Assembly (NCBI GenBank): GCA_022414725.1
Contig: CM039464.1
Coordinates: 38,525,420-38,589,419, forward strand
Reading direction: 5' to 3'
DNA length: 64,000 bases
DNA from: Microglena sp. YARC
Lineage: Eukaryota; Chlorophyta; Chlorophyceae; Chlamydomonadales; Chlamydomonadaceae
This document shows positions 247-59,100 of the stretch, piece by piece; the first letter of the stretch is position 1; each line of letters begins with the position of its first letter. The translations under genes were made by a program, and so were the position numbers. The notes below the pieces were generated by a model, which saw nothing but the letters and a program-made list of their open reading frames with translations, was not told the DNA's origin and did not search any database.

Positions 247-375
247 AGCCAGTGCGTCATCCATTTGCGAGCTGCCAGCATGGCTGAACTCCACGTGGAG
301 AGGACAAAGGTGAAGGTGGAGGAGGAGGAGGGCAAGCTGAAAGTGTTGAACAGAAAGCTGGACCAGAAAAAGAAG
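247..375 (+). CDS. USP gene, exon a (charged coiled coil)
   Basis: Acceptor CATTGCAG, donor AAG|GTAACT, 43 codons, phase 0 at both ends. The peptide is rich in K and E (VERTKVKVEEEEGKLKVL) and would form a helix or coiled coil. It joins in phase to the next exon. Confidence 0.6.
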
Positions 376-2033
376 GTAACTAACCACCTGCAGTTGCAAC
401 TGAACTTAACCACCTGTAATTGCAACCGAACATAACCACCTGCAGTTGCAACTGAACATAACCACCTGCAGTTGCAACCAAACGCAACCACCTGCAGTTG
501 CAACCAAATTAACCTCCTGCAGTTGCAACCAAATGTAACCGCCTACAGTTGCAACTGAACGTTACCTGACTTGACCTCTTGAACAACTTGGACTAGCCCC
601 TCCTAGGAATCTATAGTTGATAATAATCGATCTTGATGTATGCTAAATTCCAGGGGTAGCCACACAGGCTGAAGAAATCAGTGTTGTTGCTGTTGTTGTC
701 ACAGTCCAGGGGTAGGCCAAATAGGCTAAAGGGACTTGCCCTACCGTGACAGGAGGGGCTACTACGAAAAGCACTGATGAACCCCAAACAATCGTTTTTT
801 TGAAGGGAATGGCCTATCCCTCTCTGCTTTGGTAGAGTAATCCATGATTTCTCTTCTCTATTTTTCTGTTAACGTCCAGGGGTACCAACCCCAACCCCAA
901 ACCCCAACCCCCCCCAACCCCCCAACAACAACCTCAACCCCCAACACCAAACCCCAACACCAACCTCAACACCCCTAACCTCGTCCCCCCCCCCCCCCAA
1001 CCTCAACACCTACACCTACACTCAACACCAACACCCAACCTCAACCTCAACCTCCAACATCCAACCCCAACACCCAACCTCAAGACCCGACCTCCCCCCC
1101 CCCAATACTCAACACCCAAAACCCAACCTCAACCCCGACCCCAACCCCCACATCCATTCACAAACACATACAGAGCCACACCTGAGTTACAGAATCACAA
1201 GCTCCACCACCAACCCACAAACCCCCTCTCTGCCTTGCAGGCTGACCTCAACTCAGACAGACCGCGGCTTCTGAAGGATCGGGAGGAGGTGGAGTTTGCG
1301 CTTCGCTTACACAGGTGTGGCTTTTTTATTTAATGAATGGATGTTCACCTCAGGATGAGGAGCTTGTGATTCCGGAACCCACTTTTTCTCTGTTTCTTCT
1401 CACGATCTTCCCCCCTCAGGAGGTGGATCCAAGGGGGGGGCAAAAAAAAGTTAAAGACCCCTCCCCCCAAAAGTGTGAGACACCCTTCTGAAGACCCCCC
1501 CCCCCCCCCCCCCCCCCCCGGCTCCAGAACCCACTGTACAGCCACTATCTTAGCCACCACTTAGTGTTATGGTGTCTAATTAAGCTCATTTTACAGGTTT
1601 TTTAAAGGCCTATTCATTGAGGTTGGTCTAGAAACCATAATGAATGTTTGAAACATAGAAAATCACCATCATCAATGTCGCTGCCACTGTTGCCATCGCC
1701 CCGTCAGCTGCCGTAGCGCTCAAAGGCTGGAAAACTCTGGTAATCAAATGCTTTGATGCGCTGCTGAATCTCGACTTCTGTTCGACTGCGGCCAAGCAGG
1801 CAAGAAAATTATGATGGCGCCCTAACTTTCCATGGTCGCCGCAGAGCAATTTTTTACCGCACTTGTCGCAGGTAGTGCCCTTGGATTGTGGGTCAATACA
1901 ATAACATCAACAATAGAGACCAAAACGAAAACAGATGCACAGTGAGGGGAAGGGAAAAAGAAGAAGCATTGAAATACCACGAGGTCTCGCTCTGTACGTC
2001 GTTGTACAAGTGTTGGTTACGGCGTTGTGTGTG

Positions 2034-2067
<34 letters not shown>

Positions 2068-11000: not shown

Positions 11001-12267
11001 CCATTGAAAGCCATAGATTTGGGTTCTTTATAGCGGCCATTGAAAGCCATAGATTTGGGTTCTTTATAGCGGCCATTTAGGGCCATAGATTTGGGTTCTT
11101 TATAGCGGCCATTGAAAGCCATAGATTTGGGTTCTTTATAGCGGCCATTTAGGGCCATAGATTTGGGTTCTTTATAGCGGCCATTGAAAGCCATAGATTT
11201 GGGTTCTTTATAGCGGCCATAGAAAGCCATAGATTTGGGTTCTTTATAGCGGCCATTTGGGTAGAATGTTGTCTCAAGTAGCAAAAGCTACATACAGCGG
11301 GGAAAAAGGGGGGGGGGGGGGGATCTCTGCTGTGTGTGTATTTGCATGGATACTGAAGCCATCTTGTTGTATGTTAGTAGTAGCCTTGTGTGTCTGTTTA
11401 TGTGTCTGTGTGACTTCATATTTGTGCGCATGTATGTGTTTTGGATACACCAGTTGCATAATATGGATGCGCAAGGGCGTTGGGGTGTGTGTGGACGTGT
11501 GTGTGCGTTGGGGTGTGTGTGCATGTGAGTGTGTGCACGCAAGATGCCATGGATTCTCTAGCGCGTATGTGAGTGCACTTAACAAATATTTACATTATAT
11601 TACATTGTATTATACTGTATTATTTCAGACTATATTATATTTCATCACTCTACATTATATTACATTGCATTATATTATATTATATTATATTATATTATAT
11701 TATACTGTATTACATTTCATTAGTTTACATTATATTACATTGCATGATTTCTATATTATATTATACTATATTACGTTTTATTCTAGTACATTATATTACG
11801 TTTTATCATACTGCACTGCATTACATTACATTTCCATAGAATGTTCATTGTTGGCCCAAGACAAACCCGCTCCACATAACCTTTGAACCCCCTATCTTTA
11901 CAAGAGGAGGATGCTGGAGTGAACAGCAAGGCGACATGCCCCCCCCCACACCACCACCACCACCACCTCCACCACCACACCACCACACACACACACCACA
12001 CTACAAACTACACACACAACCACACACACACAACCATGCACATACACACACCTGTCTTGACTGGAGGGGACATAGGAGTAAACAGCAAGGCGACCTAGCT
12101 CCCCCCCCACCACCCCCCCCCACACACACAGCCATACACACACACAACCATGCACATACACACACACCTCTCTTGACAGGATGAGGCGCTGGAGTGAACA
12201 GCAAGGCTTCTTAACCCACCACCACCACCACACACACACACACACAACCTTACACACACATAACCAT

Positions 12268-12307
<40 letters not shown>

Positions 12308-12400
12308 CCATACACACACGCAACCATACACACACCTCCGCCTCTTTTGACAAGACGAAGATGCTGGAGTGAACAGCAAGGCCACCTAGCCCCCCCCCCC

Positions 12401-12446: not shown

Positions 12447-15400
12447 ACCTCTCTTTACAGGAGGAGGACGCTGGAATCAACAGCAAGGGAGGAAGCAGCA
12501 AGGCGGACAAGAAGAAAAAGAAGAAGAAGGGCAAGGCAGGGGCAGCCAAGCTTGTGAGGTAAGGAAGAATTGATTGGATGGATGGATGGATGGATGGATA
12601 GATGGATGGATGGATGGTAAGTCAGGGGGAACTAAGCTTGTGAGGTGAGGGAGAAATGATTGATTAGATGGATGGATGGATGGATGGATGGAGCAACTAA
12701 GCTTGTGAGGTGAGGGATAATTGATTTATTTGACAGATGGGTGAATGGATGGATGGCAAGTCAGGGGGAACTAAGCTTGTGAGGTGAGGGAGAAATGATT
12801 GATTAGATGGATGGATGGATGGATGGATGGAGCAACTAAGCTTGTGAGGCGAGGGATAATTGATTTATTTGATAGATGGGTGAATGGATGGATGGCAAGT
12901 CAGGGGGAACTAAGCTTGTGAGGTGAGGGAGAATTGGATGGATGGATGGATGGATGGCAAGTCAGGGGCAACCAAGATTGTGAGGTAAGGGAGAATTGAT
13001 TGGATGGATGGCAAGTCAGGGGGAACTAAGCTTGTGAGGTGAGGAAGAAGTTGATTTTGATTTTTATATGCCGTATAAACGGATGAACGGATGAACGGAT
13101 GCATATAAATAGGGAGCGGCAGGGGGGGGGGGGGGGTAGCTGGATAGTGCTACCAAGCGCTACTCGCGCTACCTGCCGTGCTCGCATAGCTGGTTTTCAG
13201 CTATCAATGTCGGTAACTTGTCCTCGAAGTTGCTATTTGGTACCGATATTGCATAGCTTTTCACAAGGAATCCGAATTTCGCATTCGCGAAGCGTGATTC
13301 CGTTCATACAGCAAGGTAACCCGGAACCTGTTGCGGCCTACCCTTTCTCATGGTAAGATTTTCAATGGCTACATTTGGCTAAGTTAGCTCCCAGCTATTA
13401 GGACTAACCCAGCTATTAGGACTATTCGTCCTACTTTGGGCTGCGGTTAGGGCTACCTGCCGCTCCCTACATATAAACGTATGAAAACGTATGAGAATTT
13501 TATGAACTTCTGGAGAAAATACTTTCACATGTGTTCCAAGGTATTGCCACGTAGCTTCCCAAGCCTACAAGTAATACAGATAGACAGACAGACAGACATA
13601 AACATACATACATACATGCATACACAGATATATTTCATCTGCTAGTAATACAGATTATAATTGAGCTGTTAATCGACTGGTCAGTGGCAGATTTTGTTTA
13701 TAGCTGTTCAGTGAATGACTTGGAGTTGGGTCTCATAGTTAGTAGTCAGTTCCTCCACTGTATAAGGCTGAATTTCTGACAATTCTCATCATTATCAGAA
13801 TTCTGGATTCTCAGGCCAAAATGTCGGAACAACGACCTACAAAGTGTTTTGAAAACCCAAATCCCAATCATCCGCTGAATGGCTATAAGAATCAGATTAA
13901 GAATGGCAATTCAGGGGCAAACAAGTCTGTGAGCTGAGGACGAATTATGGCGCTGGGTCTGGCAGCTCATCATCACCACCATCATCATCACCATTATCTC
14001 CACTCCCCTTCCCACCTGTAGGCACTCCTTTGACTCAGATGCTGAGGGCAATGAGACCTTCCTAAGCCCACGGGAGGTGGTGTGTGAGGCAGCTCATCAT
14101 CACCACCATGGCCACCATCATGATCATCATCACCTCCATCATCATCACCATCATCGTCCCTCCCCTTCCCACCTGTAGGCACTCCTCTGACTCAGATGCG
14201 GAGGGCAAGGACACCTTCCCAAGCCCACGGGAGGCGGGTGGTTAGGCAGCTCTACATCACCACCATAGCCACCACCACCATCATAATCATCATCATCATC
14301 CCTATCATCCCCATCATCACCACCATCACCACCATCACCATTATTACCCCCCCCCCCCCCCCCCCCTTCCCACCCGCAGGCAATCCTCCGACTCAGATGC
14401 TGATGGCAAGGAGACCTTCCCAAGCCCACGGGAGGCGGTGCGTGAGGCGGCTGAAGAGGAGGAAGTGGTGGTGGACGGCAAGCGCTACATCGTCATTGAC
14501 GGGCTTCGTATATTGATGCAAGAGATTGACTTCAAGGAGGCGGCTGAAGACGACGTAGAGGAGGGCGCGGACGACTGCCATGGTAAGACCCTACATGTGA
14601 ACTTCCTTCTAGAACTTATAACAACTATTATGTTCTAGGAGGCGGGTGAAGGAAAGAGAAACCCTACATGTGAACTTGTTTCTAGAACTTGTTTTGACCA
14701 TGGAGTTTGAGGAGACGGGTGAAAGCGACGCAGAGGAGGGCGCGGACGACAGCAATGGTAAGACCCTGCATGTGAACTTGCTTCTAGAACTTGTTACAAG
14801 TATTACGTTTGAGGAGGCGGGTGAAGGCTAGAGAGACCCTGCATGTGAACTTGCCTCTTGAACTTATTTCAACCATGGAGTTTGAGGAGACGGGTGAAAG
14901 CGACGCAGAGGAGGGCGCGGACGACAGCAATGGTAAGACCCTGCATGTGAACTTGCTTCTAGAACTTGTTACAAGTATTACGTTCGAGGAGGCGGGTGAA
15001 GGCAAGAGAGACCCTGCATGTGAACTTGCCTCACTTGGGGCCTTTTGCCCCTGAACTGCAGGGCCTCTGTTGCCTTCAGGGGCAACTGAACTTTTTGCCC
15101 CGGAACTGCAGGGCCTCTCTTGCCTTCAGGGGCAAAAAAATATAAACAGCAACAAAATCAAAACAGCAAGGGCAAGAGAGGCCCTGCAGTTCCGGGGCCT
15201 TTTGCCACTGAACTGCAGGGCCTCTGTTGCCTTTGCCCCTGAACGTGAACTTGCCTCACTTGGGGCCTTTTGCCCCTGAAGGCAAGAGAGACCCTGCACG
15301 TGAACTTGCCTCTTGAACTTATTTCAACCATGAAGTTTGGGGAGGCCGGTCAAGGCGAGTGAGAGGAGGGTGTGGAGGACGTACATGGTAAGACTATTTC

Positions 15401-29195: not shown

Positions 29196-29273
29196 GAATG
29201 GGAATGGGATTTCGCAGAAATGGGACTGGGCGGTCATGTTCGGCAGCATGGGTGGGCTGGATCTAGTGGTATC

Positions 29274-32104: not shown

Positions 32105-32299
32105 ATGCTCGCGATGAATAGCCTGAACAGTCAGCATGGAGCTCGCCACCTACCCCGACATCGCCTCCCCAGCCCATCGACACCCTTCCGGTCAGCCTTG
32201 ACCTACACCCGCCAGGCCAACGGCCTCCTACCCAACATCGCAGCGTTGCCGGAGCTAGCAACCATTCTAAGCACCTCAGCGCAATATCACAGCGCCGTG
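32105..32299 (+). CDS. STN-like kinase, first exon (transit peptide)
   Basis: First ATG after an in-frame stop at 32069. The peptide starts [12 protein letters not shown], is rich in Ser, Arg, Ala and Thr and poor in acids, as chloroplast transit peptides are, then reads [18 protein letters not shown]. The phase-0 donor at GTG|GTAGCA is a guess; the frame stays open to 32380 and other donors are possible. Placement rests on position and on the similarity of the segment before the membrane helix to STN8 (recalled). Confidence 0.45.
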
Positions 32300-44200: not shown

Positions 44201-47200
44201 CACTATTAGTTAGCACGTTGCACTTCATAGGGATACCGTTCCGTTGTCATGGGTTGTCATGGAACGTGTTGTGGTCTCTGTGTCATGGATCGGGTGGTGT
44301 GGTGCATGAGGTGGTGCAATGCAGAGAAAGAGGCCAACAACATAATTAGTTAGCTTGCACACATAGGGTACCGGATTGTTCATGACTCTTGCACGAGGTG
44401 CCACATGGATGGTTGTGGTCATGGACGTGGTTGTGGTCATGGAGCATGCAGAGAAGAGGCACTATTTAGTTAGCTTGCACTCATAGGGTACCGGCCCATT
44501 GTTGCCATGGTTCTTTGTGTGGGCGATGGATGTTGTGGTCATGAGACGTTGATGGATGCAGAGAAGAGCACTATTTACGTTAGCTTGCACTCATAGGGTA
44601 CCGTGACCGGATTGTTTGCCAATGAGGTTGTGAGCTTATGGATAATCGTGGTTGTGGTCATGGACGGTGGTGATGGATGCAGAGAAGAGGCACTATTTAG
44701 TTAGCTTGCACTCATAGGGTACCGGATTGTTGCCATGGTTGTGTCATGATGTGGTTTGTATGGTCATGGAGGTGGTATGGATGCAGAGAAGAGGCACATT
44801 TATTATTGCACTCATAGGACCGGTTGCCTAATGGGTTGGTTATGGATGTGGTTGTTGTGGTCATGAGGTGGTGATGGATGCAGAGAAAGGCACTATTTAG
44901 TTAGCTTGCACTCATAGGGTTAGGATTGTTGTTCATGGTTTGTCATATGGACGTGGTTGTGGTCATGGAGCGTGGTGATGGATGCAGAGAACGAGCAGAA
45001 GAAGATGGCACTAATTAGTTAGCTTGCACCCAAGAACTCCTTTTCCATTACCGATTGTGTCATGGTCGTCATGGACGTGGTTCGTGTTCGATGGATGTGG
45101 TTTGTGTCATGGAGAGTGGTGATGGATGCACGAGAAGAGGCACTATTTAGTTGCTTGCAACTCATAGGACCGGATTGTTGCATGGATGTGCGTTTGTCTC
45201 TCTGTCATGGAGGTGGTGATGGATGCACGAGAAGAGGCACAATTTAGTTAGCTTCTTGCACTCATAGCGGTACCGGATTGTTTCCATGTTGTGGTCATGG
45301 ATGTTTGTGGTTTCATGAGGTGGTGATGGATGCAGAGAGAAGATGGCACTATTTTAGTTAGCTTGCACTCATAGCGCGCGGTACCGGATTGTGCCATGGT
45401 TGGGTCATGGTTCGTGGTCATGGAGGTGGTTGTGGAGAGAGGCCACTATTTAGCATCTCTCACTCATAGGAGTTGTGCCATGCGTGATGGATGCAGAGAA
45501 GAGGAAAGAAGGCACTATTTAGTTAAGCTTGCACTCATAGGCCGTAAACCGGATTGTTGCCATGGTTGTGGTCGATGGATTACCGTGGTTTGTGGGTCAT
45601 GGAGGTGGTGATGATGCAGAGAAGAGGCACTATTTAGTTAGCTTGCACTCATAGGGTACTATACTCTGGATTGTTGGTTTGTGGTCATTGATGGGATGGT
45701 GATGGATTGCAGAGAAGAGCACTGGTTGGGCACCGGAATGGTTCCTTATGGATGTGGTTGTGGTTGTGGTCATGGAGCGTGGTGATGGATGCAGAGAAGA
45801 TGGCACTTATTTAGTTAGCTTGCACTCTCAAGGTACCGGATTGTTGGCGGACACGTGGTTGTGGTCATGGAGGTTGGTGTTGGATGCAAGAAGCAGGCAG
45901 CCTTGCAATCATGGATTGTTGTCATGGACCTGGTGGTCACTCAAAATGAGCACCAAAAAGAGAAGCGAGGCACTTAAATTAGTCATTGCAGAGAAGAGGC
46001 ACTATTTATTAGCTGCACTCATAAGAACCATCGGTACCGATTGGTTAGCCATGGATTGTTTGTGGTCGTCATGGACGTGGGTGTGTAGATGCAGAGAAGA
46101 GGCACTATTTGAGTTAGCTTGCACTCATTAGCAGATGCTACCGGATTGTTTTTGCCATGGTGTGTCGTCATGGATGTGATGTTTGTGTCATGAGGTGGTG
46201 ATGGATCAGAGAAGAGGCACTATTTAGTTAGCTTGCACTGTCATAGACGGTACCGGATTGTCCTGCCATGGTTGTGGTCATGGATCGTGGTTTTTTGTGG
46301 TCATGGAGGTGGGTGCGATGGATGCAGAGAAGAGGCACTATTTAGTTAGCTTGCACTCATAGTAGGGCCGCTAAAACCGGATTGTTGCCATGGGTTGTGG
46401 TCATGCGAATGTGGTTGTGGTCATGGAGTGGTGATGGGATGCAGAGAAGAGGCACTATTTAGTTAGCTGCACTCATAGGCGTCCACCGATGGTGTTGTGT
46501 CATGGTTGTCATGAGGTGGTTGCAGACACTATTTAGTTAGCTTGCAACTCATAGCGGGATTTTGCATAATGTGATTGGTCATGGCGTTGCGGGTATTAGT
46601 CATGGAGGGGTGAGAAGAGCACTTAAGCTGCACTCATAGAGTTGTACTAGATTGTTGTCACATGCACGAGAAGAGCACTATTTAAGCATATAGCGTACTG
46701 TTGCCATTGGGTTGTGTCCATTGTGATGGTGGTTATGGCCGAGCTTCATAGGCGAGTACCGGATTGTTTCCATACATGATGTGGGTTGTGGTCATGGAGA
46801 AGAATGGTTATGATGCGAGCAAGAATAAGAGGCATGTTAGCTTGCACTCATAGGGTAAGCCGGATTGTTTGGTGGTCAATTGGTTATAGTGGTCATTGGA
46901 GGTGGTGATGGATGCAGTAGAAGAGGAACACTTTCACAAGCTTGCACACATAGGCGTCGTGCACCAGCATGGAGATTTCCAGGTTGTGTTCATATGGATG
47001 CAAGTATTTAGTTAGCTTGCACTCATAGCACGTACCGGATTGTTGCCATGGTTTGTGAAGCATGTGGTTGTGGTCATCGGGAGGTGGTGATGGACTGCAG
47101 AGAAGAGGCACTATTTAGTTAGCTTGCACTCATCCAGTACCGGACTTGTTCACCAATGGTTGTCAGCGGATGTGGTTGTGAGTCATGGAGCAGAGAAGAG

Positions 47201-50200
47201 CACTCAATTTAGTTAGCTTGCACTCATAGGTACCGGATTGTTGTCATTTTTCATGGTGTGTGGTCATGGACATACTCGTGTTGTGGTCATGGACGTGTGA
47301 ATGCAGAGAAGCAGGCACTAATTTGTTTAGCTTGCACCATAGGGTACTGGAATTGTTGGATGTGTGCATGCATGATAGGGTAACGTCTATACTTCCAGAT
47401 GCAAGAGCAACCACTCTGAAATGTCTCTCTAAAGAGAGTACCGGATATTGTTGCCATGCTCCTGTGCTCATGGCATGGTGTGAATGGCATGCAGAGAAAG
47501 GCACAATTTGTTCAAACCTGTTTCCATGGTTGTGGTCAACCAATGATGTGTTTGTGTCTGCAGATATCGCATTTACCCTGAGCATTTAGTTAGCTTGCAC
47601 TAAATAGGGACCGGATTGTTCCATTGTTGTGGTCACATGGAGGTGCGTTGTGGTCATGGAGGTGGTGATAGGATGCAGAGAAGAGGCACTATAGTGCTTG
47701 CACTCATTAGGGTATTCCGGATTGTTGCCATGGTTTGCATCTCGGAATGGCCATAGGTTGTGTCATCACATCCGGGTGGTGATGACAAGATGGCAGAGCA
47801 AGAGGCACGTATTTAAAGTTAGCTTTGCACTCATAGGGTACCGGATTGTTGTCCGTCATGAATGTAGTTTGCGGTCCATGGGTGTGTGATGGATGCAGAG
47901 AAAAAGGCGTTTTGGAGCTTGCACTCACACGGTTTTTGTCATTGTACAAATTGCCATTACACTGTAATGTTATCCTACCCTCAACGCATATCCATTCCTG
48001 ATCATCGAAAACACCGCAACCATCCCTGGCCACAAACCCTGGCCGCAAAAAAAACATTCACCCTGACCTTACCGTAGTGCTTCAGGCAAAACAATAAAAT
48101 ATCACGATTGGAAGTGGTGTTTACTTCATGCAATCATTCCAGATTGATGAAGGGCATCATTATACATAACTGTCATACACTGCCAATGTCAACAATCCTG
48201 CCATCATCGCACTGTGACAAGAAGGGCTAAAAAATGTAAAGCTGCTCTCACCCTGCCCTCACCCTGCCCTCTCCCTGCCCTCTCCGTGCTGCTATATGCA
48301 TCCATTATACATCATCCAGAGCATCATTATACACACTGTCATTACACTGTATTGTCAACATCCTACCATCATCGCACTGTGACAAGAAGGGCTAAAGAAT
48401 ATAAAGCTGCCCTCGCCCTGCCCTCACCCTGCCTCTCCCTGCTCGCCGTCTGCTAATGCATCCCGTTGTGCACTATGAAGAGCATCATTATACACACTGT
48501 CATAACACTGCCATGTCAACATCCTACCATCATCGCACTGTGACAAGAAAGGGATAAAAAATATAAAGCTGCTCTCTCCCTGCCCTCACCCTGCCCTCTC
48601 CCTGCCCTCGCCGTGCTGCTATATGCATCCGTTATGCACTAAGAAGAGCATCATTATACACACTGTCATAACACTGCCATGTCAACATCCTACCATCATC
48701 GCACTGTGACAAGAAAGGGATAAAAAATATAAAGCTGCTCTCTCCCTTCCCTCACCGTGCCCTCTCCCTGCCCTCACCGTGCCCTCTCCCTGCCCTCGCC
48801 GTGCTGCTAAATGCATCCATTATACACCATGAAGGGCATCATTATACACACTGTCATTACACTGCCATGTCAACATCCTACCATCATCGCACTGCAACAC
48901 ACATCCACTTATGAACATCAGAAACACCACCACCACCCCTGGCCCCAAACCTGGCTGCAAAAATAAAAACTATTTTTATCACCCTATTTTCATCACCCTA
49001 CTTTCATCACCCACATTTTTACCAAACTGCAGATCATCAAGGGTATCATGAGGCAGCTTCTGCTGGGCCTTAGCCGATTGCACAACATGGGCATCGTCCA
49101 CAGGGACATCAAACCTGAGAACTTGCTGATCACTGTGGAAGGAAGGTGAGAGGGGGGCTTGGTGTTGAGTGTTTGTTTTTTGGGGGGGGGGGGGGTAGTG
49201 GGTGGGTGGGTGCATCAAACCTGAGAACAAGCTGACCACTGAAAAGGAAGGATAGAGGGCAGGGGGTGTGGTTGACTGTTGAGTGTTAAAGGGATTGGGG
49301 GGGGGGGGGGCGGTAGGCGGTGGTGTGATGGTGTGTGTGGGGGGGGGGGTGATGACATCAAACCTGAGAACTTGCTGATCACTGTGGAAGGGATGGTGAG
49401 AGGGTGGGCTTGTGGCTGAGTGTTGATGGGATGGTGTGTGTAGGTGTGGTGTGGGAATAAAACCTGAGAACAAGCTGACCACTGAAAGGGAAGGTTAGAG
49501 GGCGAGGGTGTGTGGTTGACTGTTGAGTGTTAACAGGGATTAAAGAGGGGGGGGGGGGCGGGGATGGTGAATGACATCAAACCTGAGAACTTGCTGATCA
49601 CTGTGGAAGGGAATGTGAGAGGGTGGCTTGTTGACTGAGTGTTGATGGGATTGGGGGGGGGGGGGGTAGGTGGTGGTGTGTGGTGCATGTGGTGGTGTGG
49701 GGGGGGTATGATGACATCAAACCTGAGAACGTACTCATCACAGTCGGAGGGAAGGCAAGAAGTGTAGTGCTATATGAGTGAGTGTAGTGCTAGTGTAGTG
49801 CTGTATGGCTGAGTGAATCCTAAACACACCAGATCAAAAGCATTGATCAGGGAGCTGTCATAAACATGTGTGCCAATAATATTATAACCAAAACCCTACC
49901 GCCATCAACCCTAGATTCTCCAGGTCAAGATCATTGATCTAATACCCCTCTTCAGCATGTTACCAACACCAATCCAACCCATACCAACCCATACCAGCCC
50001 AATCCAACCCATACCCAATACCAGCCCAACCCAACCCATACCAACCCATACCAGCATGTTACCAACACCAATCCAACCCATACCCTATCGCCGTCAACCC
50101 TAGATTCTCCATATCAAGATCATTTATCTAAAAGCTGCTGTGGACATGTGTACCGGCATTAGTTTCAACCCAACACTTATCGTGTTGAACCCTAAACCCT

Positions 50201-53200
50201 CCAGATCAAGACCATTGTCGACATGTGTACCGGCATTAAGTTCAACCCAACACTTTTCGCCATGAACCTTAAACCCTAAACCCTAAACCCTCCAGATCAA
50301 GATCATCGATCTAGGAGTCGCCGTTAACTTGTATCGGCATTGATTTCAACCCAACACTTATCGCCTTGAACCCTAAACCCTCTAGATCAAGATAATTGAT
50401 ATAGGAGCCACCGTGGATATGTGCACTGACATTCATTTCAACCCAAACCCTATCGCCTTGAACCCTTAACCACAAACCCTCCAGATCAACATCATCGATC
50501 TGTAAGATGCCAATCAACTTGTACCAACACTGATTTCAACCTATCACTTATCGCCTTGAACCCTAAACCCTTCAGATCAAGATTATCGATCTTGGAGCTG
50601 CCGTCGACATGTGTACCGGCATTAATTTCAACCCGGAGGCTGGCATCCTTGATAGGCGGTACAGCCCCCCTGAGCAGCTGGTGATGCCCCGTTGTGAGTA
50701 ATTTGGATGTACATAAATTATAGCCCCATTCCAGCCCATTATCAGAAAAAAACGATCGGCCTGCCTGAATAATTGGAGGCCTGGGCTAGGCCTGGGTTAC
50801 TCCATTTTATGTGTTATTTAGCGGTGCTGCACCCCTGAGCAGCAGGTGATGCCCCTTTGTGAGTCATTTGCATTATTACACCGCTTTTTTTGATTAAATT
50901 GGGCCTATATTTGGTCTGTCTTTGTTTTGTCGTTCTTATTTTGGGCATCCTGGATCAAAGGTACAGCCCCCCTGAGTAGCTGGTGATGCCCCGTTGTGAG
51001 TAATTGGCATGATTACACCGCTTATTTTGATTAACTATGGCCTTTTTGAAAATCTGATTTGGGGCATTCTGGATCGGCAGCGCAGCCCCCCTTAGCAGCT
51101 TGTGATACCCCGTGTGAGATATGTGTATGTTAATGTGCTATTGTCAGGTACAGCCCCCTTGAGTAGCTTGTGATGCCTCGTTGTGAGTAATAGGCTAGGT
51201 TATGCCGTTTAATTTGGTTCATTTTGGGCCTATCTTGGGTCTGTCTTCGATATTTTATTCTTATATTTCGCATTCTGGATCGTCGTTGCAGCTGGTGTTG
51301 CCCCGTTGTGAGTAATTTGCATTCTGGATCGTCGTTGCAGCTGGTGTTGCCCCGTTGTGAGTAATTTGCATTCTGGATCGTCGTTGCAGCTGGTGTTGCC
51401 CCGTTGTGAGTAATTTGCATTCTGGATCGTCGTTGCAGCTGGTGTTGCCCCGTTGTGAGTAATTTGCATTCTGGATCGTCGTTGCAGCTGGTGTTGCCCC
51501 GTTGTGAGTAATTTGTATGGCTTCGCCGTTGATTTTACTTTATTTTTGCCTATTTTTGTATTTTTAATCTTATTTCGGGCATCCTGAATCGGCAGCGCAG
51601 AGTAGCTGGTGATGCCTCATTGTGAGTTATTGGCATGATTACACCGGTGATTTTGATCTATTGGGCCCATCTTTGGTCTGTCTTTTTATTTTTGTTCTCT
51701 TTTTGGGCAACCTGGATCGGCGGTACATCCCCCCTGAGCAGCTGGTGACACCAGGTTGTGAGTTATTGGCATGGTTACGCTGTTTATTTTGATTTATTTG
51801 GGGCCTATCTTTGGTCTGTCTTGGTTATTATGTTCTCATTTGAGGCATCCTGGATCGGCGGTGCAGCCCCCCTGAGCAGCTGGTGATGCCCGGTTGTGAG
51901 TATTTGTATGTTGGTGTGCTGTTGTGCGGTACATCCCCCCCTGAGCAGCTGTCGATACCAAATTGTGAGTTATTGGCCTGATTACACCGGTGATTTTGAT
52001 TTATTGGGGCCTATCTTCGGTCTGTCTTTGTTATTTTCTTCTTATTTTGGGCAAACTGGATCATCGGTGCAGCCCCCCTGAGGAGCTGGTGATACCGCGT
52101 TGTGATTTATTTGTATGTTAATGTTCTACACCTACCCATACTACATCTACCCACCCACACTACACACACAAGCTGCTCGTTGAATGCACAAACCAAATGA
52201 TTCCCCCCCCCCCCCCCCAACACCCCCCCAACACCCCCCCCAACACCCACACACACACCCACACACACACGAATGATCCCTCCCCCCCCCCCCCACACAC
52301 ACACACACCACCACCACACACACACACACACACACGCTGTGCAGACTTCCCCAAGATATCAATACCAGCAGGGCAAGCAGCGCTGTCCCCCCTCGCTTGG
52401 GCGTGGGCAGACCCGACCTGTTCGACTCTTATTCAGTCGGGGTCGTCTTCATGCAAATGATGGTCCCCAAACTGCGCACCAAAAAGGGGGCCTTGTCATT
52501 CAACATGGATCTGCTGACCTGCTACCATGACCTGGACTAGTGAGTGTGGGTGGGTGGGTGGTACTGGCCGGTGGCGGTGTGGTGAAGAGGGGGGGGGGGG
52601 GGGGGGGGCTGTTTGTCTATCACCTTTGTTTCGCTGCAGGGAAGAAACTGCACACCAAAAAGGGGGCTTTGTCATTCAACATGGATCTGCTGACCTGCTA
52701 CCATGATCTGGACTAGTGAGTGTGCTCGGTGTAGTGGTGGGGGCGTGTGTGTGTGGTGGTGGGGAGGGATGGGGATGAGGGGAGCTGTTCAACTGTCGCG
52801 TTAGTTTTGCTGCAGTGTACAAATTGTGCACCAAAAAGGGGGCTTTGTCATTCAACATAGATCTGCTGACCTGCTACCATGATCTGGACTAGTGAGTGTG
52901 CTCGGTGTAGTGTTGGGGCGTGTGTGTGTGTGTGGTGGTGGGGGAGGAATGGGGTGGGGGGGAGCTGTTCAACTGTCGCGTTAGTTTTGCTGCAGTGTAC
53001 AAATTGTGCACCAAAAAGGGGCTTTGTCATTCAACCTGGATCTGCTCACCTGCTACCATGACCTGGACTAGTGAGTGTGCTCGTGTTAGTGGTGGGGGCG
53101 TGTGTGTGGTTGGGGTGGGGGGTGGGGGGGGGGGGGCATTTGTTTTCGCTGCAGTGAACAAAGTGAGGACCAAAAAGTTTGCCTTGTCATTCAACCTGGA

Positions 53201-55685
53201 TCTGCTCACCTGCTACCATGATCTGGATTTTGTATTAATTATTTATTATTATTATTATATTATTATTATTAATTTGCGCATCAATTCCTGCTCCTATGCT
53301 TTATGCCCATGAAGGTGGCTTTAGAGCTTGATTTTTTAGTATTATTATGATTATGATTATTATTTGCACATGACACCCTACTTCTATGCTTTATGCCCCT
53401 GCAGCTTGCTTTAGAGCTATATCTTTTGTATGAGTACTATTATTATTTATTTGCATTATTATTATTATTATTATTATTATCGGGAGGGTGACATACAAAA
53501 AATATCTGGTACCCCCCAGAAAAGTTGGAAGGGTCAAAAAAGGGGGGGGGGGGTACCCCACCCCACCAAATTTAGATAACACCTAGCCTATGTTGTGGCA
53601 AATCATCTCCTTTAGTACCCTGCATTTTCAAAACCCCAGGGAATGTTGTGGATTGTTTTTTAACACGATCTGACCACGATTACAAATTAATACAATATGC
53701 ACCCTAGATAACTCAATATTTTAGCTTCCTTATAGTTCCTTGCTTTCCTTTAACATCGTTTATAACTGACTTGCCTAATATTGGCCTAAAACCTGCATGG
53801 GCTTGCTACACGAAACCCACCAAAAGGTCTAAATGTAACGCCCACCTGCGCCCACCATGATTATGTCAGCTTCGAGGTGCACTAGCATGCTTTAGTTTGG
53901 GCTGAATAGCCAGCCAGGGGAGCTGCCTACAAGCTGCTGCCTGTGGCCTGAAATAGGCCAAGAAACCCTTTGTAGTAGCACTCCAAGGCACCTCGGTAAC
54001 ACAATGGGCCTCGGTAGGACAGTGGAGCTGGTAGGGGTTATTCTCACAGAATGGCTGAGGCCACTCCATAGGCCTCCAACCTTGGCAGATAGTTTGTTGG
54101 GGCTCAGCACTTGCAGTTGCATCATCTCCATCAAGTGACTGTGGCTGCTGTGGCTGTGCTGGTTTGACTCCAAAGAAGTTGCAGATTTTCTGCTGTCCAG
54201 AAAGGGTTTCAGGGCTTTGTACACAAAGCAAGATGCTCTGTGCGTCTCAAAATCATCAGCAGCTGCCCAGACCTTCCCACACTGACATGGAGGGATTTTC
54301 GCCTGAGTACCCTTGCAGAACTTCTTGTGCTGCTCGAACTGTTGCGACCCCGCGAAATCAGCACCCAAAGAGGACATGTGCATCCGTCATCGTCGTCAGA
54401 CAGCAGGCGACTATCGCTCAGGTCGACATGCTGCCTCTTGGATGGACTTTCGTCGTGAATAGACTCCTCGATGGTCCCACTTTGCAGTGCTAATTGATAC
54501 ATCCATGCCAAACCCAGACCAGGATAAGCAGCAGATCACCGGTACAGCAACGTTTCGAACTCGAACGCGAATTCGAGCTTGAATTACATAGCAGGTGTCT
54601 GGAAAGTATGGAATTAGAACGTTTGCATTGAGACGAAGTCGTTGCACTTCTCCAGAGATGAAACGGAGCAGTCAGAAAAAAGTTAGGGGGGGGGGGGGGG
54701 GGGGGGGGGGGTACCTCCCTAGAAGGTGCCCAGAATATCGCCGGACCCGGGGGTATCGATAGATCACGCGATCCCCTAATAGAAACCACTGCCCGATACC
54801 CCAACATGGGCCGTGCCGGACTTTCTATGGCTCCTGGCATCCTCCTGTTATTACTATTTTTTTTTTTATTTTTTTTACGCAAATGCACACATGCATGTTG
54901 GTGGGTGTCCATGCAGGTGGGTGCCATGTAATTGTGGGGAGGCTACCTGCTCCCCAAACAGTGAGTGTGACTGCTTTTGTAAGCACACCATGTCAGCGCG
55001 CGCGAAATATAACTCTGGACCATCTCCTTTGAATAGGGGGAGGCTGTAGTCTGAACTTGACCAGATTGTGGGAACAACTTCTTAACAATGACCTCAAGGG
55101 ATTCTGAGAGTCTGAGGCTTATAGTTGAGGTCTAACAACATCTACAGATGTTTTAGTTTTTAATCTGATTTTTCAGGTTGTTTTTGAAAAAAAGCCATTT
55201 TCAAATTCAAATTCAAACATGTGGATGTACTACTGTAGCTTACTTGATGATTCATATGTGTTCTACTACTCTTGAAGTTGATGCTGTAAAACATTCCATG
55301 CGATTTGAGAAATATATGATCCTTTGATTCCACTTTTCCCTAAACTGATTTTTTGTATTACCGGTAATACACAGCAAAATATTATTATAATTTGCACATC
55401 AACTCCTGTTCCTATGATTTATGCCCATGCAGTTGGCTTTAGAGCTTTATTTTGTAATATTGTTTATTATTGTTATTATTTATTTTGTATTATTACTATT
55501 ATTTTTTTGTATTGTTATTTTTATTATGATTTGTATTTTTTATTAGTATTATTATTAGTATTATTATTATAATAATTACTTTGATTTGCAAATCAACTCC
55601 TGCTCCTATGCTTTATTCCCATGCAGCTGGATTTATTTTGTTAAACTGTTTATTTATTTATTTTGTATTATTATTATTATTATTA

Positions 55686-55735: not shown

Positions 55736-55944
55736 TGCACACCAACTCCTGCTCCTATGCTTTATGCCCATGCAGCTGGCGAGTCAGTAAAGGCGCCGAC
55801 AACGACTTCACTTTGTTGGACCGCAACAATGAGGCTGGATGGGACCTGGCCAAGCAGCTAATGAAGGAACGGAATGTTTTCAACAGAGGTCGGCTGTCAG
55901 TGACTGGAGCATTACTGCATCGCTTCTTCTTGCCAGAATTTTAG
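32105..55944 (+). CDS. STN8/STN7-like thylakoid serine/threonine protein kinase, 8 exons placed
   Basis: Predicted chloroplast kinase of the STN7/STN8 family, which phosphorylates photosystem II core or light-harvesting proteins in thylakoids. Exons: 32105-32299 (donor uncertain), 34595-34775, 38128-38225, 38972-39192, 40688-about 40723, 49033-49145, 50576-50693, 52345-52539, 55776-55944. Seen in order: a transit-peptide-like N-terminus, a short hydrophobic segment, P-loop [19 protein letters not shown] (ATP lysine), [36 protein letters not shown] (DLG in place of DFG), YSPPEQ, and a C-lobe ending [16 protein letters not shown] then TAG. About 440 residues are recovered, against roughly 495-560 recalled for the plant relatives. 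The piece between FPY and IIKGIMRQ is missing, probably in or near the gap. Three single-base frame breaks (34654, 49145, 52408) may be assembly errors or decay. The C-lobe looks closer to STN8, the WKYES stretch closer to STN7. Confidence 0.78.
32380..33060. other. Intron stretch, no exon supported
   Basis: Unique-looking DNA. A possible acceptor CCCTACAG at about 32938 precedes a short open frame ([19 protein letters not shown]), but nothing supports it. Confidence 0.35.
33065..34590 (+). repeat. C-rich array with acceptor-side copies of the P-loop exon
   Basis: CCAACCCTCC units and C runs. CCCCTCAGGGCGTCTGCTAC plus TTGTTATTGACCAAGCCCAA at about 33409, with weaker copies at 33601 and 33840, repeat the acceptor and start of the exon at 34595. 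Confidence 0.85.
34595..34775 (+). CDS. STN-like kinase, exon with membrane segment and P-loop
   Basis: Acceptor CCCCTCAG, donor [28 protein letters not shown] matches the end of the single membrane helix and the following KPG-like segment of STN kinases. After one extra A near 34654 the frame continues [20 protein letters not shown] and [15 protein letters not shown], the nucleotide-binding loop. Without removal of that base a TAA at 34652-34654 ends the frame. Confidence 0.75.
34825..35085 (+). repeat. Donor-side copies of the P-loop exon
   Basis: Two copies (about 34826-34937 and 34970-35080) of the exon's 3' two thirds. The first has a TGA in place of the Arg codon, the second lost the donor frame. 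Both still read GNFGTAFEG or GKFGTAFGG. Confidence 0.93.
35270..37690 (+). repeat. Acceptor-side copies of the lysine exon
   Basis: About twelve copies of (GG)CAGGCAGGGGAGGGGACACA plus GTTAGTGAAGGCTAGGTTGA occur, with units of about 130-190 bp containing CCCACCAACTCACCCAACC. Two MITEs interrupt the array. Confidence 0.93.
36901..37138 (-). mobile_element. hAT-like MITE, CAGGGATTTTTATTTC family, copy 1
   Basis: Starts CAGGGATTTTTATTTCCGC, ends AAAAAAAATCACTG. Exact 8-bp duplication CAACATAA (36893-36900, 37139-37146). Inside is TATAGCGAT...ATTATCGC and repeated AAAAAGCT. Confidence 0.9.
37692..37936 (+). mobile_element. hAT-like MITE, CAGGGATTTTTATTTC family, copy 2
   Basis: Inverted copy of the previous element, 553 bp further on. 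Starts CAGTGATTTTGTTTTC, ends GAAATAAAAATCCCTG. Flanks GCAGGGGG and GCGGGGGG (7/8). Confidence 0.88.
38128..38225 (+). CDS. STN-like kinase, exon with ATP-binding lysine
   Basis: Acceptor GATGGCAG, donor ATGAG|GTGAGC. It encodes [16 protein letters not shown], then [15 protein letters not shown]. The VMKK lysine is in the position of the kinase VAIK lysine. Phase 0 in, phase 2 out. About twelve degraded copies of the 5' part lie upstream. Confidence 0.78.
38230..38910 (+). repeat. TG-rich repeat (GTTGATCTGCATTGCAGTTGTGTACG)
   Basis: About ten units of 54-60 bp occur between two kinase exons. The unit may descend from the donor region of the exon ending at 38225, since the first copies read GATGAGGTG(A/T)GCTG(C/T)GTGTATGTTG. 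Confidence 0.85.
38972..39192 (+). CDS. STN-like kinase, exon with hinge region
   Basis: Acceptor TATGTAG, donor GGAG|GTGGGT. It encodes [20 protein letters not shown], later [15 protein letters not shown], and [14 protein letters not shown], the hinge. CAE(F/Y)LG and WL(I/V)W are recalled STN-family signatures. Phase 2 in, phase 1 out. Confidence 0.85.
39255..40160 (+). repeat. Donor-side copies of the hinge exon
   Basis: Seven copies (about 39277, 39414, 39538, 39676, 39819, 39979, 40104) of ACACCGAAAGATCTCAATGG plus TATGAAAGCGATTCTACTCT and AGGAGGTGGGTAGGGAGGAG, the exon end and donor. A short one lies at 40502. Confidence 0.95.
40340..40690 (+). repeat. Acceptor-side copy of the short kinase exon
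   Basis: GACTCATTGTC..TTATTTTTGTGTAGATGCA is present at 40320-40350 and again at 40651-40692. The first carries an indel in the exon part. Confidence 0.8.
40688..40723 (+). CDS. STN-like kinase, candidate short exon after the hinge
   Basis: Acceptor TTTGTGTAG in the correct phase. It reads [11 protein letters not shown](Y), comparable to the segment ending EFPY/SFPS after the hinge in STN kinases (recalled). An in-frame TGA follows 15 nt later, so the exon either ends near GTACTG or is damaged. A copy with one indel lies at 40348. The end is not resolved. Confidence 0.45.
40745..47930 (+). repeat. Noisy tandem array of about 85-100 bp units
   Basis: The unit reads GATGCAGAGAAGAGGCACTA, TTTAGTTAGCTTGCACTCAT, AGGGTACCGGATTGTTGCCA and TGGTTGTGGTCATGGAGGTG. 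Tens of copies occur on both sides of the gap, with many single-base indels. The first unit begins at the end of the candidate exon at 40688, so it may be a donor-side edge array too. Confidence 0.9.
41921..42920. other. Assembly gap of exactly 1000 N
   Basis: Exactly 1000 Ns lie inside the tandem array of the kinase intron. The round number suggests a placeholder, not a measured length. Reading frames across it are meaningless. Confidence 0.99.
48130..48900 (+). repeat. Tandem repeat of about 180 bp
   Basis: Four copies of CATCATCGCACTGTGACAAG plus AAAGCTGC and CCCTGCCCTC(A/T)CCCTGCCC occur before the catalytic-loop exon. Confidence 0.9.
49033..49145 (+). CDS. STN-like kinase, catalytic loop exon
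   Basis: Acceptor AAACTGCAG, donor [31 protein letters not shown], then [25 protein letters not shown] is the catalytic loop of an active kinase. The exon ends in phase 2 whereas the next exon needs phase 0. The downstream copies of this edge at about 49380 and 49606 have one more base and would be in phase, so a one-base loss here is likely. Confidence 0.9.
49200..49770 (+). repeat. Donor-side copies of the catalytic-loop exon
   Basis: Five copies (about 49213, 49351, 49458, 49575, 49714) of GACATCAAACCTGAGAACTT plus GCTGATCACTGTGGAAGG occur. The HRD part is not included. Confidence 0.93.
49825..50570 (+). repeat. Acceptor-side copies of the DLG exon
   Basis: Seven copies (about 49829, 49921, 50107, 50195, 50293, 50388, 50482) of CCCTCCAGATCAAGATCATC plus GATCTAGGAGC and GACATGTGTACCGGCATT occur, period about 92 bp, each with ACCCTAAACCCTCCAG ahead. 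Confidence 0.95.
50576..50693 (+). CDS. STN-like kinase, DLG and activation-segment exon
   Basis: Acceptor CCCTTCAG, donor CGTT|GTGAGT. It encodes [20 protein letters not shown] and [18 protein letters not shown] replaces the usual DFG, and PPE replaces APE, both seen in STN7/STN8 relatives. The 5' half is copied seven times upstream and the 3' half about fifteen times downstream. Confidence 0.9.
50815..52130 (+). repeat. Donor-side copies of the DLG exon
   Basis: About fifteen copies of GGTACAGCCCCCCTGAGCAG plus CTGGTGATGCCCCGTTGTGAG occur, with units of 49 to 140 bp. Five in a row at 51270-51512 have a strict 49-bp period and lack the PPE part. Confidence 0.95.
52345..52539 (+). CDS. STN-like kinase, C-lobe exon
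   Basis: Acceptor GCTGTGCAG, donor GACTA|GTGAGT. It encodes [19 protein letters not shown], then, after a one-base frame break near 52408, [20 protein letters not shown] and [17 protein letters not shown] and PD(L/R)FD.YS are family hallmarks (recalled). With one base restored the phases agree with both neighbours. Confidence 0.85.
52630..53230 (+). repeat. Donor-side copies of the C-lobe exon
   Basis: Four copies (about 52645, 52827, 53006, 53166) of CACCAAAAAGGGGGCTTTGT through CTGGACTAGTGAGTGTGCTC occur. They carry the last 80 nt of the exon and its donor. The last one has lost the donor. Confidence 0.95.
53265..53480 (+). repeat. Acceptor-side copies of the last kinase exon, first group
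   Basis: TTTGCGCATCAATTCCTGCT plus CCTATGCTTTATGCCCATG(A/C)A occurs at 53273 and 53365. ATT repeats surround them. Confidence 0.85.
53866..54511 (-). pseudogene. Antisense zinc-finger-like ORF remnant inside the kinase intron
   Basis: Between the last two kinase exons, on the opposite strand, three overlapping frames give protein-like sequence. One has FEQHKKFC and [20 protein letters not shown] (positions 54383-53892), a Cys/His pattern that could bind zinc. The next frame has [19 protein letters not shown] and later [17 protein letters not shown] (54231-53866). The frame must change at least once, so this is either a spliced gene or a decayed one. It may come from a transposable element. 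I do not recognise the family. Confidence 0.35.
54490..55380. other. Intron stretch, no exon seen
   Basis: A G run at about 54686-54711 and T runs. The rest is unique-looking. No supported coding sequence. Confidence 0.5.
55385..55775 (+). repeat. Acceptor-side copies of the last kinase exon, second group
   Basis: TTTGCACATCAACTCCTG(T/C)TCCTATG through CCCATGCAG(T/C)TGG at 55390 and 55586, then the real one at 55736. An ATT microsatellite (55660-55735) separates them. Confidence 0.9.
55776..55944 (+). CDS. STN-like kinase, last exon
   Basis: Acceptor CCCATGCAG completes the split Tyr codon. It encodes [20 protein letters not shown], then [13 protein letters not shown] and [19 protein letters not shown], with TAG at 55942-55944. 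This is the end of the kinase C-lobe. The protein stops right after it, as STN8 nearly does. Confidence 0.88.
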
Positions 55945-57058
55945 GAGGAGCAGAGGGGGCTGGATGGGACTGTGCCAAGCAGCTCATGGAGGAAAGGAAT
56001 GGTTTCAATAGAGGTCCGCTGTCTGTGACTGGAGCATCACTGCATCTCTTCTTCTTGCCAGAATTCTAGGTAGAGCAGAGCAGTTGCGCTTTGCTACGTG
56101 TCTAATATGAGGCTGCTTTCAGGCTGTACACAAAAGGTCAGCTGTCTGTGACAGGAGCATCGCTGCGTCAGTTTTTCTTGCCAGAATTCTTGCAAGATTT
56201 GAGGGGGCTGGAGGGAGCTTGTCAGGTTTATGTTGAAAGGAAGACATGTGATCAACTGAGGTCAAGTTGATGCATCGCTTCTTCTTGCCAGAATTCTGAG
56301 AAGAGCAGTGGAGGCCGGATGGGACCATGCCAAGTAGCCCACGGAGGAAAGGAATGTTTTCAACAGAGGACAGCTGTCAGTGATTACTGCATCTCTTTTT
56401 CTTACCAGATTTTTAGGGGGCTGGAGGGAGCTTGTCAGGTTTATGTTGAGAGGAAGACATGCAGTAAAACCTAGGTCGAGTTGCTGTATCGCTCCTCTTG
56501 CCAGAATTCTAGGAGGAGGAGGGGGGCCCTGCCAAGCAGCTAATAAATAAGATGGGACTGTGCCAAGCAGCTAATGGAGAAAAGGAGCCTCAGATAGAAT
56601 TATAGGAAGAGCCGGGGGGGCTGGGTAAGGTCTGGCCAAGCAGCTCATGGAGGAAATGAACGTTTTCAAGAGAGGTCGGTGTCAGTGACTGGAGCATTAC
56701 TGCATCGCTTCTTCTTGCCGGAATTTTAGGAGGAGCAGAGGGGGCTGGAGGGACAGTGCCAGGTTCATGTTGAAGGGAAAGCATGCCATCAACCTAGTTC
56801 GTGTTGCTGTATCGCTTCCTATTGCCAGAATTCTGGACAGATCAGAGCAGTTGCGCTTTGCTACGTGTCTAATGTGAGGCTGCTTGCAGACTCTACACAG
56901 AAGGTTGGCTATCTGTGACCGGCGCATCGCTTCATCGGTTTGTCTTGCCGGAATTATAAGCAAAGCAGTTATGTTTTGCTATCTGTCTAATGTGAGGCTG
57001 CTTGCAGACTCAACACAGAAGGTTGGCTATCTGTGACCGGCGCATCGCTACATCAGTT

Positions 57059-57252
57059 CTTGGCGGAGCCCCCTCTTCAAGGGGGCGGGAGCCCCCATGT
57101 TTACCCATTTGTCCGTCCAAACCAAACATACAAAAATTGAGACCCGACACGTCAGCCAACGGTCGCGTAACTAACTCGCTTCGGTCAGCTCCATCGTTGC
57201 CACCTTTCATTCCGTTGCCAATACACTCCGCCAATTTTCCGCGTCGCTTGCG
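57059..57252 (-). mobile_element. Dispersed element with GGCGGAGCC hairpin end, copy 2
   Basis: Inverted relative to 22741. It interrupts one of the kinase-end copies. Flanks CGCTACATCAGTT and CGCTACATCGGTT suggest a 13-bp target duplication with one mismatch. Confidence 0.75.
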
Positions 57253-57677
57253 ACGCTACATCGGTTTTTCTTGCCGGAATTATAAGCAGAGCAGTTATGT
57301 TTTGCTACGAGTCTAATGCGAGGCAGCTTGCAGGCTCCACACGAATGGGCAGCTGCCTGTAACTGAAGCGTTGCAGCATCGGTTCTCCCTACCAGAATCC
57401 TACACAGAGCAGTTATGCTATGCTGTACTATGCTATGCTACGAGTGGCAGCTTGCAGGCTCAACACAGAAGGTCAGCTTCTGCCTGTGGCTTTCGCATTG
57501 CTGCATCGCTTCTCCCTACACAGAGCAGTTATGCTATGCTATACTATGCTATGCTACGAGTGGCAGCTTGCAGGCTCAACACAGAAGGTCAGCTTCTGCC
57601 TGTGGCTTTCGCGTTGCTGCAGTGGTTCTTCCTACCAGAATCCTACACAGAGTAGTTATGCTTTGCTACGCGAGTAC

Positions 57678-57872
57678 CAGGGTAATACTTCTTGCCAAAT
57701 TGGTCAGCGTGTCAAGCGCACAAACGTCAAATTGGCCAGCGCTTTTTAGTGCAAGAAGCGCAAAAACTGCGCGCTGCGTCCTCAGGGAGTTGGAAAAACT
57801 GCGCGAAACACGCAGAGGGGCTCAAAAAGGCAGCGCGGCACCGCGCTGCCGCGCGCGCTTAGTAGTACCCTG
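57678..57872 (+). mobile_element. hAT-like MITE, CAGGGTACTAC family, copy 3
   Basis: Starts CAGGGTAATAC, ends GTAGTACCCTG. Exact 8-bp duplication GCGAGTAC (57670-57677, 57873-57880). It lies within the array of kinase-end copies. Confidence 0.92.
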
Positions 57873-58299
57873 GCGAGTACGCGTGGCACCTTGCAGGCTC
57901 TACACAGAAGGTCAGCCGCCTGTGACTTTCGCGTTGCTGCAGCGGTTCTCCCTACTAGAATCCTACACAGAGCAGTTATGCTTTGCTACGCGAGTGCGCG
58001 AGGCACCTTGCAGGCTCTACACAAAAGGTTGGCTGCCTGTGACTTGAGCGCTGCTATATTCGGAATTCTAGACAGAGTAGAGCAGTTATGTTCTTCTACG
58101 TGTATACTGCATGGTAGCTTGCAGGCCCTCAAAACAAAAGGTCAGCTGCCTGTTCCTGGCGGGGTGCAGCATCGGTTCTTTCTGCCAGAATTCTAAACAG
58201 AGTAGTTATGCTTGGCTTTGTGTCTAACGTGTGGCAGCTTGTAGGCCCTTTGTAGACTGGAGCCTTCTTGCTGGAATTCTGGACTGCCTGGCTAATGGA

Positions 58300-59100
58300 G
58301 CTGGCTGGAAGCTGCCATGCCTTGCCCACAACAGGAACAGTGGTAGCAACTTGGCTAGACAGAGCAGAAAGATTTGGGCGTGACCCAATGGCTGGCTAAT
58401 AGAGCTGGATGGAAGCTGCTACACGTAGCCCCAATGTGTGTGTTTTACAGTGTAGCTGGTAAAGGCTTAGCCAAATGGGCTAAGTCACTTGCCCAACCTC
58501 AATATTGGGAAGGGCTGTATATAAAACAGGCACTGGTGAACTGAACCCCGATAAATCGTGGGAAACGGGCCCCTTAAAGAAACAGGGGTGACCGGTGACC
58601 CAAGGCTTGATCACGTGATGAAATCTCATAGGTTTACAAAGTTGATAGCATTTCAGCAGATGATTTGGAATCGACAGACATAGGTGGTACTTAGTACCTC
58701 GACTTACTCATGCAAAATTGACGGCAATTCTCCCATAATTCTCGGAGTTCTCGGGATTTCAGGCCAAATCTGAGGTACAGGTGGCCTGTTTCGAAATATC
58801 AAAATCCCAATCATCCGCTGAATTGCTATACAGACATGTCTAGGTTCAGGACTTGACTGCGTAGTGGCCGAGGCCAGGGTTTACATCCCCCAAAGTAGGG
58901 CCAGGGTGGCTAATGGAGCTGGATGGAAGCTGCTTCGCGTAGCCCCAAAAAATAATGGTGGTGACAGGTACCCCAATAATGTACCGCGCAATGCAATCAC
59001 ATAGGTTTGCGCATTTAATGCCGTCAAAATGGTAGCGAATCTAATGCAAATCTAGGGTCTAGGAAAAACCCTCGACCCACCTAGAGACAACTAGAGATTC
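58300..59100. other. Intergenic stretch with dispersed repeats
   Basis: GAGCTGGATGGAAGCTGCT(A/T) and GTAGCCCCA recur at 58401, 58916 and inverted near 61130. No gene seen. Confidence 0.5.

Follow-up and report, generated by a model that had tools for sequence, protein, structure and literature searches.

Several described systems come close to the arrays reported here, as far as the accessible part of each source describes them. In potato RdRp, a single internal tandem duplication across an intron-exon boundary made a new intron (PMC4974935), and in human duplicated genes the expansion of minisatellites over exon-intron boundaries has elongated both exons and introns (PMC2812944). Our arrays resemble the potato case in that the unit runs from the 3' end of an intron into the 5' part of the exon that follows, and they differ from it in that introns have apparently been lengthened, from both sides, in many genes and with many copies. 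With the human repeats they share a tandem repeat expansion that overlaps exon-intron boundaries; that report lists 27 intron modifications with units of about 30 bp on average, whereas units here are mostly about 100-200 bp and 33 of 106 sampled exon edges are affected. An earlier note on this DNA knew of no named class of intron growth that fits. Ordinary exon duplication indeed fails to describe the arrays, as does introner insertion for the one array tested, but tandem duplications that cross a boundary have been published before, in the accessible parts of the two reports just cited.

Other precedents are more distant. The tandem genomic duplication model, in the accessible part of a review (PMC3443670), likewise lets local duplication and splicing turn exon-derived DNA into intron; there, an exonic AGGT segment is duplicated and a new intron results, whereas the unit here holds a pre-existing junction. 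Repair-mediated duplication (PMC2671141) also places short copies near their source, with partial exon or intron donors in 4 of 824 cases; the copies described in the available text are single, occur in vertebrates and include one inverted case, whereas ours are direct and amplified. Introners (PMC9860276) similarly repeat a sequence within introns, and are described there as elements copied into many genes, unlike the array tested here: a 301-base piece of one array, searched against the whole genome with very common words skipped, had no match beyond itself and three sites in the array it came from, and an introner origin was rejected for it. Relatives of Chlamydomonas are conspicuous for their long introns; the accessible text of a comparative paper (PMC8226300) calls it unknown what advantage this length brings and considers the mechanism behind it likely to be ancient. 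Among titles and abstract openings, we found no description of a genome-wide padding of introns by exon edges.

The window, by which we mean the whole stretch of 64,000 nucleotides that was analysed, sits on contig C3 of a 568-Mb genome. Each of 13 exons of its two long genes was compared with the window by self-BLAST together with 150-bp flanks, and matches with at least 15 exon bases and an E value of at most 1e-3 were kept. All 13 exons had edge copies. The 92 matches were all on the plus strand, with 5' parts of exons upstream of their exon and 3' parts downstream, at identities to the exon of 67-95%, and 91 of them came to within 3 nt of the exon edge or ran past it; the single match that ended inside its exon, short of the edge, lies at 56551-56586. 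Thus the arrays that the earlier note had read by eye are real, and counting them by side and by junction span, as it had proposed, bears out their geometry. As direct repeats with units longer than 10 bp, they belong among tandem repeat or minisatellite arrays over an exon boundary. A copy of a whole exon with both splice sites was found in none of the 92 matches, and ordinary exon duplication was rejected on this count and on that of the chaperonin genes described below, where only one exon (exon 5 of locus G) came near it. The copy counts previously given for exons 12461, 24610, 38128, 38973, 50576 and 52345 were broadly matched, and six exons beyond that list (14380, 23394, 25981, 27673, 28787 and 49033) also had edge copies.

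Gene 1, which contains two stretches with UCH-domain matches, has edge copies at every exon examined (all features in both genes are on the plus strand and, unless stated otherwise, come from self-BLAST). Exon 12461-12558 is preceded by 4 acceptor-edge copies within 11887-12381 and followed by 6 donor-edge matches within 12690-13946. Exon 14380-14582 has its first 73 nt repeated twice upstream, at 13968-14251, and 3 donor-edge matches at 14710-15394; exon 23394-23519 is preceded at 22936-23303 by 3 copies of its first 50 nt. Ahead of exon 24610-24751 lies an array built on its first 39 nt, at 23766-24530 (5 matches; 6 in the distance-decay analysis), and 4 downstream copies of its last 34 nt occupy 24958-25361. 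Both UCH-domain exons are accompanied by copies as well: exon 25981-26317 by 2 upstream copies of its first 125 nt (25580-25902) and 1 downstream copy of its last 138 nt with the donor (26352-26492), and exon 27673-28117 by 6 upstream copies of its first 55 nt with a period of about 146 (26633-27539). The last exon, 28787-29029, ends in a stop codon; it has 3 upstream copies of its 5' edge (28266-28678), and its only downstream copy, at 29131-29197, spans that stop.

Gene 2 is, judging from the names of its relatives P0133 and P0194, an STN8/STL1-like chloroplast kinase; the best relatives of the kinase query are at about 50-55% identity, and the exon order was confirmed against them by reading. 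Exon 38128-38225 has 9 upstream matches of its first 32-43 nt at 35464-37968 (11 in the distance-decay analysis) and 1 weak downstream match, and exon 38973-39192 is followed at 39257-40574 by 8 copies of its final stretch (about 72 nt). The exon encoding HRDIKPEN (49033-49145) is followed by 5 copies of its last 41 nt at 49213-49755. Around exon 50576-50693 we found 7 upstream matches of its first 59 nt (49814-50541) and 14 downstream matches of its last 20-52 nt with the donor (50821-52118); exon 52345-52539 is followed at 52645-53227 by 4 copies of its last 72 nt. By reading, two homologous parts of the latter exon are out of frame with each other across a run of CCCCCC, an apparent frameshift or sequence error. 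The predicted protein P0211 joins two gene 2 exons as in the gene model built here and uses the expected copies at two exons, the splicing being read from geometry and prediction. It takes in just the initial exons of the kinase gene (window 32106-39192) and ends before the array-rich intron.

The terminal exon of gene 2 (55776-55944, stop codon TAG at 55942-55944) had been credited with downstream copies that carry a GT donor. The downstream copies exist, at 55958-58282 by motif count and self-BLAST, and what they carry is the end of the coding sequence and the stop rather than a donor. Self-BLAST gave 4 of them and the motif count more: at no more than 4 mismatches, 11 copies of the stop region were found downstream beside the original, against 0.015 expected from a mononucleotide shuffle. 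Upstream of this exon no copy passed the self-BLAST filter; the copies seen there by reading comprise the intron end and only a few exon bases.

To see how far the pattern extends, we used a sample of chaperonin genes, in which a Cpn60/TCP1 family search gave 64 matches and 12 loci with 53 exon matches were taken. This sample represents one protein family, its splice sites were set by a simple score, and two of its loci (B and L) are the same locus. The nearest named relatives of the chaperonin are P0005 of Chlamydomonas leiostraca (81%) and Volvox (78%); together with the relatives of the kinase, they put the genome close to Chlamydomonadales. The gene models match the predicted protein P0001 except for two residues at one junction. 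Edge copies were present at 26 of the 53 exon matches, a count that includes duplicate locus L and a pseudo-exon in G: 18 had upstream copies of the 5' edge, 15 had downstream copies of the 3' edge and 7 had both, so that about a third of the exon edges were affected. Edge copies were looked for at loci F, H and J as well, and none were found there. Ten matches fell outside the edge classes; 4 overlap the exon match itself (A two, D two), 1 is a copy of part of a neighbouring exon (G) and 5 are interior pieces (B, D two, G and I). The one approach to whole-exon duplication, exon 5 of G, is a copy of the 3' part of the preceding exon.

Two kinesin loci, chosen because their protein matches already displayed copies, have long two-sided arrays. 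In a non-exhaustive reading of the kinesin search, 10 partial matches adjoined a fuller match, and 9 of them share its 3' profile end if downstream or its 5' profile start if upstream, the exception (C1:30457694) lying inside. In eight random 5-kb stretches of the genome, tandem sequence made up 31% on average, with a range of 0-84%, and inverted sequence 0.7%; the chaperonin loci cut into 5-kb pieces were 40% tandem and 1.9% inverted. Local copies are direct: 94 direct clusters were counted, and of the inverted pairs, 26 in all, 8 were palindromic self-matches and no other lay within 600 bp. Since local copies that cross exon boundaries are numerous, lie on both sides of exons and occur in many genes, introns have grown by such duplication, as the earlier note had proposed.

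Could the arrays be produced or inflated by errors in long reads? Two places in the assembly invite the question. From 41029 to 47900 the window holds about 7 kb of indel-rich copies of a roughly 105-bp unit around a gap of 1000 N (41921-42920), and the sequence from about 41.0 to 47.9 kb reads like unpolished long-read sequence. In addition, one chaperonin locus of genome G000 is present twice on C2, at 59.86 Mb (L054) and at 59.95 Mb (L037), with one version full of single-base indels; the pair may be an assembly duplicate or an uncollapsed haplotype, and B and L were accordingly rejected as two separate genes. Against a general artefact, the copies mostly differ from their exon by about 5-33%, and both C2 versions have the same second copy of an exon end, though the reads may be common to both. 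We regard an artefact as the least likely of the explanations considered, and very unlikely indeed.

The copies were also said to decay with distance, which holds only weakly: in the 21 arrays with at least 4 copies, the median Spearman rho was -0.13 and 15 of the 21 values were negative. Neighbouring copies were closer to each other than to the exon in 10 of these arrays, and arrays seem to expand on their own as well. If selection kept the extra splice sites as working decoy or alternative sites, an excess of intact sites would point to it, and acceptors do have a small one, with AG retained at 113 of 122 copy positions against 1928 of 2280 exon positions. Copies within one array are, however, not independent, and GT is retained at donors at the same rate as in exons (122/138 against 2137/2433), which leaves functional decoys unsupported for donors; these counts, like the offsets and exon shares given below, include duplicate locus L and the G pseudo-exon and pool in the ascertained window. 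Nor does such a role apply to the arrays of stop codons. Maintenance of decoys is therefore quite unlikely, and the copies appear to decay roughly neutrally.

The earlier note further held that growth is centred on exon-intron boundaries, and it named copies not centred on splice junctions, in a genome-wide analysis, as a finding that would count against it. In the chaperonin sample they are not so centred. Using TRF-masked self-alignment of the chaperonin loci, we found that tandem segments spanned 14 of the 36 best-supported (intron-paired) junctions, 6 of the 21 single scored splice sites (20/57 for both together) and 10 of the 45 bare profile-match ends. The paired junctions do not exceed the background either inside the same 18 introns (2240/4343 points, which is 52%, or 44% when the 18 introns are averaged one by one; p 0.14) or at non-exon points (6166/17674, 35%; p 0.60). 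All chaperonin edges together, a set that drops duplicate locus L and one G pseudo-exon and in which two edges, between exons 3 and 4 of E, are no junctions, were spanned at 30 of 102, compared with the same non-exon points (p 0.30), and an earlier pass that included the duplicate locus gave 32 of 106 edges against 1142 of 3503 random non-exon points, the G pseudo-exon being counted there as well. Set against points that lie between the outermost exon matches (5083/10738), 30/102 gives p 0.0003, but this comparison is unfair and is no proof of depletion, since bare profile-match ends, which may fall inside exons, make up 45 of the 102 edges; depletion at junctions was dropped as a reading. Because the points are non-independent and the sample is small, the result is that no enrichment of tandem segments was detected among 36-57 junctions, a number with which a modest enrichment would still be compatible.

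A process directed at junctions, whether by splicing, R-loops or exon-boundary chromatin, would duplicate across them and make introns grow from their ends. Some features of the window suit it: array coverage is 0.87-0.92 at 100-400 nt from junctions and 0.45 at more than 800 nt, tandem segments span 16 of 26 junctions as against 2008 of 3811 other points, and several introns appear to be made of little besides edge copies. The chaperonin sample leaves room for a modest effect, too. The same sample, however, gave no enrichment at junctions, and coverage of its introns by arrays did not fall with distance from the junction, staying at 0.39-0.56 over all distance bins, while coverage of exons went from 0.33 in the first 15 nt from the edge to 0.06 beyond 150 nt (coverages that include locus L and the G pseudo-exon). 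Similar arrays lie in random stretches of the genome, and stop-codon edges (exons 55776 and 28787) are copied just as splice edges are. With copies not concentrated on junctions, at the limited power of 36-57 of them, we set a junction-directed class aside and consider such a process unlikely.

Nor did we find support for a need of a separate two-sided mechanism, since uniform duplication and a filter at exons give a two-sided pattern in a toy simulation. When tandem duplications were placed uniformly and copies landing inside an exon were rejected, exons of 330 bp retained only edge copies on the correct side, exons of 200 bp nearly only these, and exons of 120 bp 77% edge copies and 23% whole-exon copies. 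We therefore think it probable that widespread local direct duplication, filtered by selection, fills the introns with decaying exon edges. A widespread mutational process would make local copies in the same orientation, at offsets of mostly 100-200 bp, and the arrays would then expand. A duplication wholly within an exon would alter the protein and mostly be removed, one wholly within an intron would be neutral, and one across a single exon edge would be neutral as well, one copy still working while the other turns into intron. Such an edge-straddling copy should be harmless because the copy attached to the rest of the exon keeps working; this would be the downstream copy where the acceptor is straddled and the upstream copy where the donor is. 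Repeated events would lengthen the introns and store 5' edges upstream and 3' edges downstream. We observed the arrays, their geometry, their recurrence in other genes, the duplication of stop edges and the scarcity of local inverted copies, and we infer the filter by selection and the use by splicing of the exon-joined copy. On this evidence from sequence, the best explanation would be a known kind of event, internal duplication across a boundary, at an unusual density.

The offset of units at exon edges is independent of reading frame, with remainders modulo 3 of 0, 1 and 2 in 17, 20 and 15 cases. The exon share of the duplicated unit had a median of 0.39 (quartiles 0.27-0.50) where the simplest duplication model expects 0.5, and this non-uniform share counts against that model. 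With the exon part mostly under half of the unit, intron gain of the Rogers type through an exonic AGGT was rejected.

How the first copy arises bears on the form of the process. Within 600 bp we found 19 exact two-copy events, a set that leaves out duplicate locus L and the window from 32 to 48 kb (the latter also excluded from the 102-edge analysis), and 17 of them have a spacer of 8-321 bp while 2 are head-to-tail, which runs against simple contiguous duplication as the founding event. Nine two-copy events were read: in four of them (C, I and two in K) the spacer, 57-127 bp long, was judged unrelated to the copy, and in the other five (A, D, E, J and L) the spacer itself contains copy sequence. 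The spacer of event I holds an intron end with its pyrimidine tract, which suggests that the copy was inserted at a distance.

These spacers invite a reading in which break repair inserts nearby DNA close by, giving copy, spacer and copy, and unequal exchange then enlarges the array. This would be a variant of filtered local duplication and compatible with it. The spacers in 17 of 19 events and the unrelated ones in 4 of 9 agree with repair, as do the proximal duplications in human, up to 619 bp long, in the accessible part of PMC2671141. Copy sequence within the spacer in 5 of 9 events does not, nor does the lack of local inverted copies beyond palindromes, given the inverted case in the accessible text of that report, and later deletion may also produce spacers. 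A toy model of spaced copying with exons of 200-330 bp predicts that about a third of copies should lie in the exon interior only, and few such copies were found. A repair origin is possible, if doubtful, and slippage, template switch or repair copying may each have been the founding event. More tentatively still, a lineage-wide and still active short-range copying would leave edge arrays at about a third of exon edges, intron length in this algal group would largely be set by boundary-crossing duplication, and the founding copies would be spaced rather than strictly head-to-tail. If true, a copy-spacer-copy founding event would be a distinct mutational signature.

Part of intron growth is legible in this genome, because an exon edge kept in an intron can be aligned with its living exon and dated from it, and such edges can be counted. 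Some arrays place one presumably used splice site beside similar unused ones, up to 14 of them at exon 50576, and so are a natural test of splice choice. The arrays also carry a warning for annotation, in that decayed exon edges score as protein-domain matches and the predicted P0211 stops short of the array-rich kinase intron.

Paralogous chaperonin loci differ by an intron at RRVPKDDL^RRIARATG, which is absent from one of the paralogues (L042/L043 vs L045/L046); in its counterpart the intron is 1.8 kb long and contains copies of the exon edges on either side of it. This is a candidate for intron gain or loss. In the paralogues E and G, the main exon pairs are 77-83% identical and the introns hardly align beyond the exon edges, so that no empty site can be read there. 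Arrays also occur within long open frames, where, in contrast to the frame-independent offsets at exon edges, the periods are for example 30, 36, 48, 63, 69 and 345. A leucine-rich-repeat open frame of 617 aa on the minus strand of the window (61854-63707) is made of 69-bp tandem units and looks like an in-frame counterpart of the array habit. Finally, a recurring GGGAGCCCCCAT-like element, possibly a transposable element, was found by reading at 22860-22900 and 57060-57115 of the window, where it adjoins arrays, and at locus K (L053).
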